A stretch of DNA of 64,000 nucleotides from Mesotoga sp. Brook.08.105.5.1. Its GTDB lineage: Bacteria > Thermotogota > Thermotogae > Petrotogales > Kosmotogaceae. The position numbers were made by a program, and so were the translations under genes. Shown in pieces: positions 28,452 to 38,682 of this stretch. The notes under the pieces are model-generated. The model was given only the letters and a program-made list of their open reading frames with translations, ran no database searches and was not told the origin of the DNA. How positions within the stretch are numbered: position 1 is the stretch's first letter; each line of letters begins with the position of its first letter. The DNA lies in contig NZ_AYTW01000041.1 in the NCBI RefSeq assembly GCF_002752635.1, positions 1 to 64,000 of the forward strand. The letters run 5' to 3'.

Positions 28452-28811
28452 AAACTTCCTCCATTGATACGTGTTCCACCAAACTCAAAGAAACACGGCG
28501 ATTTTCCAGAACAAACCTTTCCGAGCGCAGCGCCAAGCTACTCTTAATCGCTCTTGAATCAACGATGGCAAAGAGACAAAGTCTGAGTACTCTCTTCCTC
28601 AAGTAAAACATGGAAAGCGCATCATTGCCCGGAGAATCAAGAGTTGATAACAGAGATCCTAAGAATTCATTCGCAAAAAAACTTGCTCTTCAATGTAAAG
28701 CCTCATTCTCGGTGGCGGATGGTTGATGCCGCCCTTATGCTACACTTCTTCACAAAGAGTTCATTTGCATGGAAAACGAGAATAGTTTATAATATACCCG
28801 GGAGGGGTAAT
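28452..28811. other. Intergenic region upstream of ccdA
   Basis: No gene is supported. The region holds the ribosome binding site and leader of the decayed peptidase at its left end and the ccdA promoter at its right end. A GGCGG...CCGCC inverted repeat lies near 28713-28734. An in-frame extension of the ccdA frame to 28644 has no start signal. Confidence 0.6.
28765..28793 (+). promoter_or_regulatory. Promoter of ccdA
   Basis: A perfect TATAAT (28788-28793), with TTGCAT (28765-28770) 17 bases upstream as a partial -35. The ribosome binding site GGGAGGGG follows seven bases after the -10 element, so the leader is very short. Confidence 0.55.
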
Positions 28812-29546
28812 ATGAATGAATTGACTTCTGTAGCAACCGGAACAATCGGCCTTTCACCATTGATTAGTCCCATTGTAACAACCAGCGTGACATACGGCAG
28901 CGCCTTCTTAGGGGGATTGCTTTCTTTTTTCTCTCCATGTATTCTTCCGCTTATTCCAGTCTTCTTTGGAGTTCTTATGGGTGGAGCAAATGATGCAAAG
29001 GCGCGCTTCATAAGAGGAGCGTTTTTTACACTGGGTATGTCTATCTTCTTCTTCATTCTTGGTATCGGTGCAACAGGTCTTGGCACGTTCATAAGGCAGA
29101 ATGAAGTCCTGATGAATGTTATTTCTGGAAGCCTCTTCATTCTCTTTGGCTTCCTCTATCTCTTCGAGATAGGAATTAGGGGAGTAAACCTTAACGTTTG
29201 GAAGTTCGGAGGATCTGCTGTTAGTGGCTTTGTGCTCGGAGCCGTTCTCGGTCTGGTGTGGGTACCTTGTGCGGGACCGATTCTTGGTTCGATTCTTGTC
29301 TTGGCTGCAAACCAGTCTGCGATAGCGGAGGGTGGCATGATGCTTCTGGTTTATTCATTAGGTCTGAGTATCCCATTCCTTACCCTCAGTGGAGTTGTAG
29401 CGAAGCTTACCTCCAAGCTCTCGTTTAGTGGCGAGAGTAAGTGGAGAATGGTTATTAGGATATCGGTCTTCGTAGTGCTATTGGCTGCCGGACTTATTAC
29501 GATGACAGGCAATCTGAATTTATTACAGTTCGTAACGGGAGGTTGA
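28812..29546 (+). CDS. ccdA: Cytochrome c biogenesis protein CcdA (thiol-disulfide transmembrane reductase)
   Basis: The 244-residue, six-helix membrane protein passes reducing equivalents from cytoplasmic thioredoxin to exported thiol proteins. The two redox cysteines sit in FFSPCILPLIPVF (helix 1) and WVPCAGPILGS (helix 4), each followed by the family's proline-rich turn. The open frame extends to 28644, but ATG 28812 has GGAGGGG immediately upstream and matches the usual family length. It is followed five bases later by a thioredoxin-like exported protein, the likely reduction partner. No cytochrome genes are adjacent, so general periplasmic disulfide reduction is the more likely job. Confidence 0.9.
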   Translation: MNELTSVATGTIGLSPLISPIVTTSVTYGSAFLGGLLSFFSPCILPLIPVFFGVLMGGANDAKARFIRGAFFTLGMSIFFFILGIGATGLGTFIRQNEVLMNVISGSLFILFGFLYLFEIGIRGVNLNVWKFGGSAVSGFVLGAVLGLVWVPCAGPILGSILVLAANQSAIAEGGMMLLVYSLGLSIPFLTLSGVVAKLTSKLSFSGESKWRMVIRISVFVVLLAAGLITMTGNLNLLQFVTGG

Positions 29547-29550
29547 TTTT

Positions 29551-30225
29551 ATGAGAAAGATGCTGATTGTGATTGCTCTGATTCTACCTGTGATGATCTT
29601 ATCTTATGTCGGAATGCTAGATGATTTTGACAAGACACTGCGACTGGCAGAGATCCAGGAGAAGGAAGCTATAGTAATGTTTTCAGATAACACCTGTGGG
29701 TATTGCGTGAGATTTATTAAGGAGACGCTTGCTGATGAGACTGTTGAGGAACTGCTTCGAGCAGGCTTCATTTTCTCTCAGATCTACAAGAGTAATCCCG
29801 GAACGGCTTCTTACATAGTTGGAGAAGAAGTCAGGGAGATGACCTATGGTGATCTATACGCCCACTTCCAAATACGGGGAACGCCTACTTTCTGGTTCTT
29901 CACAAGTGATGGTGGGTTATTGACTCAGCTGCCCGGCTATGTGCCTGCAAACGATTTCGTACCGATACTTCGTTATATTGGCAGCAAATCGTACGAAGGG
30001 ATGACCATCGATGATTATCGAAGTAAGCCGTCAGATTACTTTGGAACGCCCAAGATAGTTAGGGTTAACGAAGAAGACTACAACTACGTGCTTGAAAACG
30101 ACCCTATCGCTTCAGAGTATGCCGGTCAGGATGTTGACGTTTTCACTGTATGGCTGACGAAGGATGAGGAAACCGCTGAAAGTCTTCTCGAAGAAGGAGT
30201 TTACAGAGTTATCCTTCTGAACTGA
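29551..30225 (+). CDS. Exported thioredoxin-like protein, CcdA partner
   Basis: The 224-residue protein has an N-terminal signal peptide or anchor (MRKMLIVIALILPVMILSYV). The thioredoxin-fold domain has active site NTCGYC (residues about 49-54) and the cis-proline loop RGTPTFWFF (about 111-119). It resembles the SoxW/thioredoxin_2 group, and the CGYC dipeptide is closer to DsbC/SoxW proteins than to thioredoxin. The tail beyond residue 150 is unlike known domains. It lies five bases after ccdA and must be co-transcribed; CcdA probably keeps it reduced. The 3' end overlaps the convergent macrodomain gene by 17 bases. Confidence 0.83.
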   Translation: MRKMLIVIALILPVMILSYVGMLDDFDKTLRLAEIQEKEAIVMFSDNTCGYCVRFIKETLADETVEELLRAGFIFSQIYKSNPGTASYIVGEEVREMTYGDLYAHFQIRGTPTFWFFTSDGGLLTQLPGYVPANDFVPILRYIGSKSYEGMTIDDYRSKPSDYFGTPKIVRVNEEDYNYVLENDPIASEYAGQDVDVFTVWLTKDEETAESLLEEGVYRVILLN

Positions 30226-33621: not shown

Positions 33622-36600
33622 TCAGAATCTGAACCTGAAGTATGGATCACCCTTGTGAAGTCCAATCACAAGATACCTATCCTTCAGTTCCTTTATATAG
33701 AATTTTAGTGCAATTGTCTCAAGGGAGTCCTGGAACGTGTTGATTTCGCTCCCGAAGCCCAACCTCAATACAAGCTCCAGAGCCATACAGTGCAGATCGA
33801 AGTACATCGGTGAAATCTTCGTTATCGATTCATCCCAGAGTGAGACATCTCCTGCATAGGTTCCAATCTCTACGAAGCTCCTCTTACCGCTTCCGTCTAT
33901 TCCCAGAGAGAGCCTGTTGAGAACTCCTGGAGTATCAGAGAGCGTGCCCATAGGGAAGAAAAGCTCGTTGATGTGCATAGTGAAGTAGTAATCCTCTGCT
34001 TTACGGAGCTCCATCGAGAGTCCAAACTCCTCGAATTTCGCCGTTCTTCCCCCAAGGATAGTCTTGTTATCGAGTTTGACATTGGAGACTCCAAACGAGT
34101 ATGCTGAATACCCTGTTTCAGACGCTGTAGAGGTCGCGATAAAATACTCGCTGACCGAGAAAGTTGAAATAGTCAGCCTTGTTGACTGCCATATCAGGAA
34201 TCTAGCCTGAGACTCTGATTTAGTGAAATACTTTTCGGGATACTTGTACTTTGAATCGAACTTCGTGAAATCCGTCGTGAAGTCCAGTGAAGCTGCCCTC
34301 CAGGAGACTTCTCCCACCGAGAGGTCATTCACCTCAAACTTCAATCTGTCGTACATCTTTCTTGAGCCTGAGAGATAAGGATATCTGAACTTCACTCCAA
34401 ATGAGGCGAAATCTTTGATCTTGATAGAGGAACCAAAGACCAGATCCTTCAGCATTCTTTCATCTTCAGCAACATTTGGCGAGGCATCGAAAGTCCAGTC
34501 GAGAGTGAATTCAAGTTTTGTTTCGGTAGCGATTTCGAGGGTCAATCTCTCCTTGTTGACGAAGTCGTCAAACATGTCTTCACTCTGCCAGAATACTTTG
34601 CTCTCGGTCTTATGTGAGAAGACCTTCGAATCGAAAGTGAAGGAGTAGGCAGTCTCTGAGGCTTTGGAAGTAACAGGCATGAAAATTGTTTCTGTCTTCT
34701 GACCGAACTTCAGACCCCAGAACTCAACTTCTCCTTCGGTCTTAAGAAGGCCCTTTCCCAGCCAATTCATTTCGGTAGGACTGGCCACCAGTTCTTCATA
34801 GTCCAATTCAAGAACATAATCGGCCTTGAGGACCTCCGTCTCAATTCCAGTCAGCAGCTTTCCCGGGTGGTCGAGGCGCCATTCCTCTTTCAGGAAGTCA
34901 TAGGTTAGCACTGGATTGTACTGCACACTGACGTAGTACCAGTCAAATGGTCTATAGGTAAGCTCGTTCTTGAGCGTTACAGGTATCTCGTTCTTAGTGA
35001 GTTTCCATCCTTCATCTGAATCATAGTAGAAGCCCACTTCATACGCGGGCTCCAGGACCACTCCAACCGAAAGCGGTCCCCATTCACCTTTGTACAGTTC
35101 AATGTCTTTGTATACACGTAACTTCTTCCCTTCAAACTTGAAAGAGCCGTCGTATCGCGATTCAAAATAGAACTTCAGTTCAAGAGAGATGAAGCCATCA
35201 TATACAATGTCAAAGGGATCTATCCAGAACAATCTATCCTTATTCTTTTCATGAATAGAATTGTAGTCCAGGGCGTATCTTCCGTTGATTTTCAATTTAC
35301 CGTCTTCTGATGCAAAGGTCAGATAGTTGCGGCCGATACCCTTGTTATCTGCCGGCATAGTAATGTTAAGCTCAGTAGTAGAAGCGTCGAAAGTGCTCTT
35401 CACGTCGCCGCCGATCTTTAGATTCCCAGCAGCGAAGAGATACTTATTTACCTCAAGCACGAAATCTTCCATATTGGAGGGACTGAAAAGTTCTGTAAGA
35501 GTAGCGGCGTTTGATGCTAGTTTGAAATTCAAAGACTGAACGGAAAAATCTGCACCGAACAGCGCTCCCTCAGTCTTGACTGCGGAAGCGTTGGCTCTCA
35601 GAGAATACAGGATATTCTTGTTTATGTATCGCTGGCCGAAAAGACCGCTGACTCTGAACTCCGAGGTACTGAGCTTAAAGAAACCAGCATCGATAATCTC
35701 ATCCGAAGGAATCGTTAGATTCTGAACGTTGACCATCCAGAGATTCTTATCGTCATATCTTGCGAAAGCTCCGATAACATCTAGCTTCAACTCCCAATCT
35801 TCGGGGGAGAGTATTTGAACATAAGCGAGCTGCATTTCGGTCGCGCCCATCGTCTCTTTCACGGCGAAAGGATCAAGCTGAGTTACTTTGTTCTTGACAA
35901 TGCTTTCTCCCAAGTTAATGCCTGTGAAGGGGGTCTGAAGTTCCTTTAACGGAGGCCCGCTAATGTATAGAGCGCCTCCCTGCATTCTTATTTGATCAAA
36001 AGAAGGTTTTAGCAAGACATAAGCGCCGTAGCTTGTCTCTTTCTGCTGGCCGAATTGACCGAAGAATTCTATTTCACCTATAGGTGTATAGAGTACAGAC
36101 TTTGCTGTGAAGGCGTCTTCGGTAGACATCCAATCTCTGTACCACGTTCCTTGAAGAAGAAGCCAGTCGACTTCCAGGTAACGAACGGTTATCCGTGTCT
36201 GAGCATCTGCAATTCCGCTAAGATCGACATCGAAGGGACGTCTGTCCGGGTCGTCTAGCGGGAAGTAGTAGTACGGCAGATAGAATACCGGGATATTGCC
36301 GATGTACAGCAGCATGTTCTGCACCGACATCCCCTTTCCAGGCGTCACAACTGCCGATGAGACCCTGAATCTGTAATGGGGGTGAGATTTATCGCAAGTG
36401 GTTATGTAGCCGTCCGTTATGTTCAGGGTAGGTGATGCTTCCATAGTCGATTGAACATAATCGCCGTAAACATAGAACGGGACTTTCGAAGCTGTCTTGG
36501 ATGTATCGCCTCTGGACGCTGGCACTTCAATCTCAGTGCGCGAGAACACCTGCATACTTTCGACTCTCTCGTTCGTTAGATCAAGAATCAATCTATCTGA

Positions 36601-37974
36601 GACTATAGTTGTCTCGTCACTTACCATCTTCACGTTACCCCAGAATGAGATCGATTCCGGTGTGGAGTCGATATTCAGTATAGAGGCATTCGACGCATCT
36701 ATAGTTGCCGTCATAGTCTCACTGAAGTACTCTACTCTCACGCCGTCTCCAATGAGTATCTCTCTGCCGTCTTTCGTTCCAGCGATCGTTCCCCCCACGA
36801 TCCTCACATTTGATCCTTCGAGTAAGCCTGGAACAAGCAGGATTATAACAATGGCGGAACCCTTCAGGATTCTCGTGAAGAATTCCGAAAGCCGGTAACT
36901 GGCTTTCGTATCTATGAGCGAGTAGATTACGACACCAAGGATAGAAAAGACGATATTCGGAATCCACGGGGCAAGAGAGGGGTTAATCAGATTCTCCTTC
37001 CCCATACCGCTAAGCCATGCACCCGATCCTTGATATATGACAACGAGCAAGAAGGTCAGAATAACCGACCAAGACTTCGATTGAAGATTGAACATAAGCG
37101 AAACCGGAACACCGAGCAAGACAATAACGAGAGGAGCGATCGACATCGAATACTTTTCCTGCAGAGCGACTTCGAGCGAAGAAGTATTTATGCCGGTGTT
37201 CTTGAACGCCTTTATGTCTTCTCTCAGCTCGGCACTAGTTTTCTCCTTCGGAGATTTGAAGCTCGCCAGGTATCGTTCAATGTCGTCATCAATTTCAAAT
37301 TCTGCAGTACCGAAATGCATCTCAACTCCCAGAAAGCCTGACTCATCTGTCTGGTAAATCTTGGCATCACTCAATATCCATTTATTTGGAACAATGATGG
37401 CACTCTCAGCAGTCGTCAACGTAACCTGACCTCTGTAGACCTCATAAATCGAGACATTCTTAAGCTCTTTTGTTTTCTGATCTATTCTTCTTACGTATAT
37501 CATTCTCCCCTGACCGTCCTGCATGAAAACATTTTCTCTCAGCGTGACTTCAGGTTGTCTGTAAACAAATCTTGCCATTGCCTCACTTGCCTTTGTTGAG
37601 GCCGTGGGGACAAGATAGTCGTTAAGCAGATAAGCAAAGCCGCTGAAAAGAACCCCAATAAGCAGGAAGGGAATTACGAGCCGTTTGAGAGATATTCCGT
37701 GCGTCTGCAGGGCAATCAGTTCGTTGTCCGATCTCATTCTCGAGAGTACCCAGAAGATAGCCAGGAGTATTCCCACCGGTATTCCAAGAACAATGAACTC
37801 GGGAAGATTGTAATAAATGAGCAAGAAGAGCTTATCTATGCCCACCTTGTATCTTATTATCATGTCAGACAAGTAGTAGAGTAACTCTAAGCTCACGAAA
37901 ATTATGAACCCAACCAGACCAATAAAAATCGAACCTAATGCTTGAGCTCCTATGTACTTTATAAGAGTCTTCAA
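33622..37974 (-). CDS. LptF/LptG-type permease fused to LptA/LptD-like periplasmic and outer-membrane domains
   Basis: The single 1450-residue frame reads in order as follows. An LptF/G (YjgP/YjgQ) permease (residues 1-365) has three helices, a periplasmic jellyroll (about 125-260) and three more helices. A seventh hydrophobic segment (about 370-387, KGSAIVIILLVPGLLEG) would move the chain to the periplasm. An OstA/LptA-like jellyroll follows (about 390-490). Then comes the LptD signature (about 500-585; ITTCDKSHPHYRF, YIGNIPVFYLPYYYFP) and a long beta-strand-rich barrel ending in a terminal Phe (KGDPYFRFRF). TTG start with GGGGTGA upstream. It follows phoU by six bases. No lptB, lptC or lipid A genes are in the window, and Thermotogota are not known to make classical LPS, so the cargo is unknown. 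Confidence 0.87.
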   Translation of the reverse strand: MKTLIKYIGAQALGSIFIGLVGFIIFVSLELLYYLSDMIIRYKVGIDKLFLLIYYNLPEFIVLGIPVGILLAIFWVLSRMRSDNELIALQTHGISLKRLVIPFLLIGVLFSGFAYLLNDYLVPTASTKASEAMARFVYRQPEVTLRENVFMQDGQGRMIYVRRIDQKTKELKNVSIYEVYRGQVTLTTAESAIIVPNKWILSDAKIYQTDESGFLGVEMHFGTAEFEIDDDIERYLASFKSPKEKTSAELREDIKAFKNTGINTSSLEVALQEKYSMSIAPLVIVLLGVPVSLMFNLQSKSWSVILTFLLVVIYQGSGAWLSGMGKENLINPSLAPWIPNIVFSILGVVIYSLIDTKASYRLSEFFTRILKGSAIVIILLVPGLLEGSNVRIVGGTIAGTKDGREILIGDGVRVEYFSETMTATIDASNASILNIDSTPESISFWGNVKMVSDETTIVSDRLILDLTNERVESMQVFSRTEIEVPASRGDTSKTASKVPFYVYGDYVQSTMEASPTLNITDGYITTCDKSHPHYRFRVSSAVVTPGKGMSVQNMLLYIGNIPVFYLPYYYFPLDDPDRRPFDVDLSGIADAQTRITVRYLEVDWLLLQGTWYRDWMSTEDAFTAKSVLYTPIGEIEFFGQFGQQKETSYGAYVLLKPSFDQIRMQGGALYISGPPLKELQTPFTGINLGESIVKNKVTQLDPFAVKETMGATEMQLAYVQILSPEDWELKLDVIGAFARYDDKNLWMVNVQNLTIPSDEIIDAGFFKLSTSEFRVSGLFGQRYINKNILYSLRANASAVKTEGALFGADFSVQSLNFKLASNAATLTELFSPSNMEDFVLEVNKYLFAAGNLKIGGDVKSTFDASTTELNITMPADNKGIGRNYLTFASEDGKLKINGRYALDYNSIHEKNKDRLFWIDPFDIVYDGFISLELKFYFESRYDGSFKFEGKKLRVYKDIELYKGEWGPLSVGVVLEPAYEVGFYYDSDEGWKLTKNEIPVTLKNELTYRPFDWYYVSVQYNPVLTYDFLKEEWRLDHPGKLLTGIETEVLKADYVLELDYEELVASPTEMNWLGKGLLKTEGEVEFWGLKFGQKTETIFMPVTSKASETAYSFTFDSKVFSHKTESKVFWQSEDMFDDFVNKERLTLEIATETKLEFTLDWTFDASPNVAEDERMLKDLVFGSSIKIKDFASFGVKFRYPYLSGSRKMYDRLKFEVNDLSVGEVSWRAASLDFTTDFTKFDSKYKYPEKYFTKSESQARFLIWQSTRLTISTFSVSEYFIATSTASETGYSAYSFGVSNVKLDNKTILGGRTAKFEEFGLSMELRKAEDYYFTMHINELFFPMGTLSDTPGVLNRLSLGIDGSGKRSFVEIGTYAGDVSLWDESITKISPMYFDLHCMALELVLRLGFGSEINTFQDSLETIALKFYIKELKDRYLVIGLHKGDPYFRFRF

Positions 37975-37980
37975 GAAGAA

Positions 37981-38682
37981 TCACCCCTTGTTGTTCTGGG
38001 CATTGAAATCAATGGGTTGGAAACCGTCATTAACACATCTATAGTATTTGCCGGTTTCAATATACACTGCTGCTTCCATAAGTTCAGTCGAATGATCTGC
38101 TATCTCTTCCAGAGCTCCGAAAACCATCATTAAGTCTAGTGCTCTGCTGATTATTGATGGCGATTCTTCGCAGTAGCGAACGAGATCGGTCTTTACCTCT
38201 TCCTGAATTCGATCAACGAAATCGTCATTCTTACACAATCTTACAGCTTCAGAAAGAGAGGGGTCAACCAAATTGTCTATTGCGCCTTTTGTCATTACGG
38301 AGACAGATTCGAACATCGTCTTCAGTTTTTCATGATAGCCTATCGGCGGACGCTTTGAAAGTGACAATCCCCTCTCACATATAAACACACACTTGTCGCC
38401 TATACTTTCAAGAGTGCTGACGATATTCATCGAGAGAGTCAAGAGTCTTAATTCTTTTCCTGTTGGCGTCAGTATTCCGGTTAGGCCGATTATCATTGCT
38501 TGTAGTTCCACCTGATGATAATCTATCACAGAGTCGGAATAAATCACATCTCTTGCCTGGTGTTCATTTCTCTCTAGAACAGCAACAGATGTCTTGTTAA
38601 ATATGCTCTGGACATATCGCGCCATTCTGAGAATCTCAATTCTCAGGTTTCCTATTCTTTCGAGACCAACTTTAGATATCAT
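37981..38682 (-). CDS. PhoU-like phosphate regulator
   Basis: The 233-residue, all-helical protein consists of two PhoU repeats (about 15-100 and 120-215), with the acidic E/DxxxD metal-binding patterns recognisable as LESIGDKCVFICE and LEEIADHSTELMEA. PhoU proteins link the phosphate ABC importer to the PhoR kinase or control Na+/phosphate symporters. Neither partner is in the window. It overlaps nadK by 11 bases and precedes the Lpt fusion by six, so it belongs to their operon. Assignment as a stand-alone PhoU-domain protein is sure; the regulated target is not. Confidence 0.85.
   Translation of the reverse strand: MISKVGLERIGNLRIEILRMARYVQSIFNKTSVAVLERNEHQARDVIYSDSVIDYHQVELQAMIIGLTGILTPTGKELRLLTLSMNIVSTLESIGDKCVFICERGLSLSKRPPIGYHEKLKTMFESVSVMTKGAIDNLVDPSLSEAVRLCKNDDFVDRIQEEVKTDLVRYCEESPSIISRALDLMMVFGALEEIADHSTELMEAAVYIETGKYYRCVNDGFQPIDFNAQNNKG

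Follow-up and report, generated by a model that had tools for sequence, protein, structure and literature searches.

Can a single gene supply both the inner-membrane and the outer-membrane end of a lipid transport line? The question is raised by a frame in the 64,000-nucleotide stretch of Mesotoga sp. Brook.08.105.5.1 analysed here (contig NZ_AYTW01000041.1, positions 1 to 64,000; hereafter the window), where the minus strand at 33622–37974 encodes, from a TTG start and with no internal stop, a protein of 1450 residues that joins an LptF/LptG-type permease to an LptD-like outer-membrane protein. This fused LptG::LptD gene is conserved throughout the phylum Thermotogota, and its product is probably a polyprotein that signal peptidase I cuts into LptG and LptD. 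A first-pass annotation, made from the letters alone, had described the same uninterrupted 1450-codon frame and had taken its product to be a hard-wired bridge between the two membranes, or a tether of one to the other.

The permease domain occupies residues 6–351 (36922–37959, on the minus strand like all parts of the gene) and comprises six helices and a periplasmic jellyroll. It matches PF03739 (LptF_LptG) with an E-value of 3.8e-78 and 263 bits against a curated cut-off of 27.9, over profile positions 1–351 of 353, and the NCBIfam LptG and LptF models match the window protein likewise. This is the fold of the known LptF/LptG permeases, and LptB is present in the genome as well, but Thermotogota have a single copy rather than an F/G pair, and that copy carries LptD on its C-terminus. 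Behind the permease come a basic stretch, YRLSEFFTRILK (residues 360–371, 36862–36897), and a seventh hydrophobic segment, GSAIVIILLVPGLLEGS (residues 372–388, 36811–36861), of which residues 372–386 (about 36817–36861) are the hydrophobic stretch proper. The OstA/LptA-like jellyroll of LptD follows at residues 388–545 (36340–36813), a region for which PF03968 scores above its cut-off in homologues of the window protein. It runs into the LptD signature TTC..PHY..IPVFYLPYYYFP (residues 524–572, 36259–36405), whose Cys, Tyr and Pro are invariant in the homologues and whose motifs are present in the window protein as ITTCDKSHPHYRF (524–536) and YIGNIPVFYLPYYYFP (557–572). Two curated NCBIfam LptD models match at residues 524–576 (E 1.6e-5) and 519–577 (E 0.026), both short matches at the junction of jellyroll and barrel, while the Pfam LptD barrel domain gives no match to the window protein at E ≤ 1. 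When a profile of 70 full-length homologues was compared with the PDB, it found LptD (8h1r, E 2.1e-9; 7omm, E 1e-7), LptG (8frl) and LptA (8onu), and a profile restricted to the C-terminal part matched the same LptD and LptA chains; the best profile matches to solved LptD chains lie at E 2e-9 to 3e-8. The permease, the seventh segment (placed at about 370–387), the OstA/LptA-like region and the LptD-type signature had all been picked out in the first-pass annotation, and each is borne out.

Structure prediction, which had been proposed there as a check, also leads to LptD for both inputs that were modelled. AlphaFold2 was given residues 355–1450 of the window protein (the C-terminal 1096 residues, with an alignment of 50 sequences) and a full-length Thermotoga-type homologue of 1061 residues (L055, with an alignment of 70 sequences), the alignments consisting of proteins translated from genome loci plus the window protein and L002. 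The tail of the first model (predicted local distance difference test score, pLDDT, 81; predicted template modelling score, pTM, 0.51) is made of antiparallel beta strands, and LptD accounts for all of its 14 best Foldseek matches in the PDB (lowest E 3.1e-15). The second model (pLDDT 84.5, pTM 0.45) contains the permease helices, a jellyroll (149–225), a seventh helix (356–376), another jellyroll and a series of antiparallel strands, and as a single model it matches LptD (E 1.1e-20), LptG (6mjp_G, E 1.1e-15) and also LptF. A hinge with pLDDT below 50 lies at 376–382, right after the seventh helix and at the proposed cleavage site.

The barrel region itself, residues 580–1450 (33625–36237), ends in Phe, as do 53 of the 77 homologues aligned here. 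The barrel-like tail ending in Phe that was first described therefore stands as regards its last residue, its antiparallel strands and its Foldseek matches to LptD; whether the barrel closes, and with how many strands, is not settled by models with modest TM-scores and a pTM of 0.45–0.51. About 41 strands of at least 8 residues are modelled in this region, and 33 of at least 7 residues in the Thermotoga-type homologue. The known LptD barrel of E. coli has 26 strands, fewer than the 33–41 predicted for the fused form, and if the modelled strands do close into one barrel, which is uncertain, it would be unusually large.

E. coli LptD contains a long-range disulfide that links the end of the jellyroll to a C-terminal strand. 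Just two cysteines occur in the window protein, and their positions correspond to this pair: Cys527 in TTCDKSHPHY, at the end of the jellyroll, and Cys1396 in FDLHCMAL, near the C-terminus (FDLHCMALELV, residues 1392–1402, 33769–33801). The TTC-type motif is present in 77 of 77 homologues, and 69 of them also have a Cys no more than 160 residues from the C-terminus, with LHC as its commonest setting. We infer from the sequence that Cys527 and Cys1396 pair as in LptD. A few kilobases from the fused gene, at 28644–30225 on the plus strand of the window, lie genes for a DsbD/CcdA-like membrane protein and a thioredoxin-like protein, which are possible candidates for the oxidoreductases of such a disulfide. 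The C-terminal half thus shares with LptD its jellyroll, the TTC..PHY..P signature, a large barrel and two cysteines, but it differs in having a permease and an internal signal ahead of it instead of an N-terminal signal, and in belonging to a phylum without LptE.

A frame of this kind could also have been produced by an assembly or sequencing error that joined two genes, an outcome the first-pass annotation had said would overturn its reading. We surveyed 103 Thermotogota genomes from 38 genera and eleven families and found a match to the fused protein in 101 of them, in all 38 genera. Distinct full-length or near-full-length fused proteins numbered 77, mostly of about 1060–1466 residues and from nine of the eleven families, and complete single-contig genomes hold uninterrupted fused frames of about 1083–1474 residues. 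In family f3 (G001) the gene was seen only cut by contig ends, and in family f6 it is split in G005 and fused in G006 and G007. Nothing was found in support of a joining error. In a few genomes (G040, G093) the frame is interrupted elsewhere in the gene, probably by sequencing errors. With uninterrupted frames in so many independent genomes, complete ones included, a joining error is refuted, and we give it practically no weight.

Apart from G005 and genomes in which the gene is interrupted or truncated at a contig end, there is one LptF/G gene per genome, which suggests that the permease acts as a homodimer. From the sequences we judge this probable; the first-pass annotation had raised it as a possibility. 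Outside the phylum some 286 genomes were surveyed with PF03739, and among the roughly 150 best matches listed none lies in a frame of more than 900 residues; a 1105-codon stop-to-stop frame at L190 has no LptD match. The long frames outside the phylum that were read are mostly LptF–LptG fusions, and LptF and LptG share one frame in several non-Thermotogota genomes (L175, L178, L183, L184, L185, L188). These fusions resemble the Thermotogota gene in uniting Lpt parts, but they join two inner-membrane permeases, whereas the Thermotogota fusion joins an inner-membrane to an outer-membrane part.

How the two halves come to occupy different membranes would depend on the seventh segment. The first-pass annotation had argued that this extra helix moves the tail into the periplasm, which is reasonable as topology, and judging by its residues the helix looks like a signal peptide rather than a plain anchor. 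In the alignment of the 77 homologues the basic cytosolic tail of LptG (e.g. YRIREFLSR) gives way to a hydrophobic core often only 11–13 residues long, then by polar residues and a small residue, often behind an aromatic one (LFS, GFS, VFS, LFA; also QAA), and then by the first strand of the jellyroll. Signal peptides built in this way also open the separate LptA-like proteins of Thermotogota, where a strand of the same kind follows at once. A cleavage-site matrix trained on 13 of these LptA signal peptides and scanned over the whole fused proteins gives the junction the highest score of the entire protein in 42 of 77 cases and one of the three highest in 65 of 77; position alone would account for about 4%. 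The −3/−1 small-residue rule holds at the junction in 76 of 77, compared with about 49% of random 9-mers. In the window protein YRLSEFFTRILK would accordingly be both the cytosolic tail of LptG and the n-region of an internal signal, GSAIVIILLVPGLLEGS its hydrophobic part, and LLEG|S or LEGS|N a weak site for signal peptidase I. In genus g18 (L035 3407–7201, plus strand, and L036) a low-complexity linker of some 40 residues, rich in Thr, Pro and Ala, lies between the proposed cleavage site and the jellyroll.

Several observations weigh against cleavage. The signal-peptide build is clear in most homologues but weak in the window genus, and the site in the window protein (LLEGS|NV) ranks sixth within its own protein by the matrix, among the weaker sites. 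The −3/−1 rule also holds at the end of helix 5 in 77 of 77, so that it is not specific and was rejected as proof of a cleavage site when taken alone; hydrophobic length, likewise, is only partly diagnostic of a signal peptide, as the run is 13 residues or shorter in 21 of 77 and helix 6, with 14 residues, is short as well. Finally, the fusion has persisted throughout the phylum, perhaps because the covalent link is of importance in itself.

Two natural splits at the junction bear on this point. In G053 a stop codon follows PLKRLLG at the end of LptG, and after 7 more nucleotides an ATG begins an 848-residue LptD, whose first residues are MHLRYKSFSPVLFIISLFFIILSGTKVFSA|TAYID. This is not a mere frameshift, since the new n-region makes LptD longer than in the fused form. 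In G005 two permease (LptF/G) genes stand in tandem and an 849-residue LptD with its own N-terminal signal peptide is encoded elsewhere. The assemblies of these two genomes are incomplete drafts (80% and 86%). In a tree both G005 permease copies fall within the fused clade and group with the fused proteins of their own family (99/98), on long branches; G005 is therefore not favoured as an ancestral unfused state, and its split and duplication look secondary by this sequence comparison. Because split genes occur in these two lineages, the covalent link between LptG and LptD is dispensable there, and because the split LptD starts with a signal peptide, the seventh segment works as one when it is N-terminal. 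G005 also encodes a 603-residue LptA-like protein with three tandem PF03968 stretches (L135 6294–8105, minus strand), which is perhaps a pre-joined bridge.

If helix 7 were instead a permanent anchor, LptG and the LptD barrel would stay covalently tied in a hard-wired transenvelope bridge or membrane contact site. Conservation of the fusion across the phylum would fit such an uncut chain, as would the modelling of helix 7 as a helix behind the permease and the weak cleavage motif in the window genus. The short core of 11–13 residues with polar and small residues behind it in many homologues argues the other way, as does the splitting of the gene in two lineages in which LptD keeps a signal peptide. 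Distance is a further difficulty. A single jellyroll measures roughly 5 nm. In T. maritima OmpA1 keeps the toga and the inner membrane about 50 nm apart (PMC3387000), a spacing that one jellyroll and a linker of few residues cannot cover, and an uncut chain leaves no place between its two jellyrolls for a separate LptA-like protein. For these last two reasons in particular the hard-wired bridge is disfavoured, and the bridge or tether first proposed for this locus gives way to the combined weight of the signal-peptide build, the two natural splits, the separate LptA-like protein and the gap of about 50 nm. We consider an uncut chain unlikely, though least so in the window genus, which has one of the weakest cleavage sites, and find it equally doubtful that, in at least some Thermotogota, the chain persists with seven inner-membrane helices and an outer-membrane barrel, its homodimer holding two barrels at a permanent contact site.

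The halves might also be separated in some other way, either by another periplasmic protease or by a second internal translation start that makes LptD alone. Such a route would leave room for the weak signal peptidase site of the window genus. However, the n-regions of the 77 homologues have no conserved Met or start codon ahead of helix 7, and an internal LptD start codon was rejected on this ground; taken together, these other routes strike us as very improbable.

The remaining parts of an Lpt line are encoded apart from the fused gene. LptB is found in the same genome (TIGR04406, 295 bits against a cut-off of 240) and scores above the cut-off in all 41 genomes sampled. An LptA-like protein of about 210–240 residues with its own signal peptide (PF03968/PF06835) is present in this genome and in much of the phylum, and its gene stands beside serS both here and in G058. 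In two genera it lies close to a gene for an OmpA1-like protein, similar to the toga spacer in that a long coiled coil stands between a domain at its N-terminus and a hydrophobic helix at its C-terminus (L132 6312–7472 and L134 4938–6173, both plus strand). The genome also encodes signal peptidase I, and Omp85 was found in 88 of the 103 Thermotogota genomes. LptE (PF04390) was found in none of the 103 (E. coli control positive) and LpxC likewise in none (four controls positive). The survey suggested in the first-pass annotation, covering the fusion, separate LptF/G, LptA and LptD, and lipid A genes, has thus returned a phylum-wide fusion, a separate LptA-like protein and no LpxC. The lack of LpxC agrees with its view of a lineage not known to make classical lipopolysaccharide (LPS) and with the description of Thermotogota as having no LPS genes (PMC5007114).

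These components suggest how the cleaved polyprotein might work. The product would be inserted by Sec, with the cytosolic tail of LptG serving as n-region, helix 7 as h-region and the small residues before the LptD jellyroll as cleavage site of an internal signal, and after insertion signal peptidase I would cut at that site. LptG would then remain in the inner membrane as a homodimer working with the LptB of the genome, while LptD would cross the periplasm to the toga outer membrane, where the Omp85/BamA protein would fold it, and the separate LptA-like protein would bridge the two. The exported cargo would be an amphiphile other than LPS, most likely a glycolipid. T. maritima contains mono- and diglucosyl lipids (PMC8788747), and Bowen et al. 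proposed glycolipids as the cargo of LPS-less Lpt systems, naming T. maritima (PMC10353723).

Directly upstream of the fused gene, across a gap of 6 nucleotides, lies a PhoU-domain gene (37981–38682, minus strand), and the two are probably on one transcript. A promoter scan gave a result at chance level.

Lpt orthologues in T. maritima are not new: Putker et al. (2015), as relayed in PMC10353723, reportedly described them there and in Thermus. A literature search found no paper on the LptG–LptD fusion or its internal signal. The cytochrome b/c1 polyprotein encoded by fbcH of Bradyrhizobium, whose internal signal is cleaved after insertion, offers an analogy in which one gene likewise yields an inner-membrane and an exported protein by way of an internal signal; there, however, the products form a respiratory complex and both stay in the inner membrane, whereas LptD here would be bound for the outer membrane. 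The Lpt system of Borrelia also operates without LPS and has a glycolipid as proposed cargo, but its lptF, lptG and lptD are separate genes (PMC10353723).

A whole phylum whose cells have no lipid A thus has an LptB–LptG–LptA–LptD line with both ends encoded in one gene. Earlier accounts list Thermotogae as having, of the genes for outer-membrane biogenesis, little more than bamA (PMC8871954), and describe Thermotogota as without LPS genes (PMC5007114). The question of what Lpt carries in LPS-less diderms becomes testable in a defined lineage, with the natural splits in G053 and G005 as ready-made controls. The gene is also a probable example from bacteria of an inner-membrane and an outer-membrane protein connected by an internal signal, and if the polyprotein is indeed cleaved, the cell probably makes both ends of the line together and then cuts them apart.

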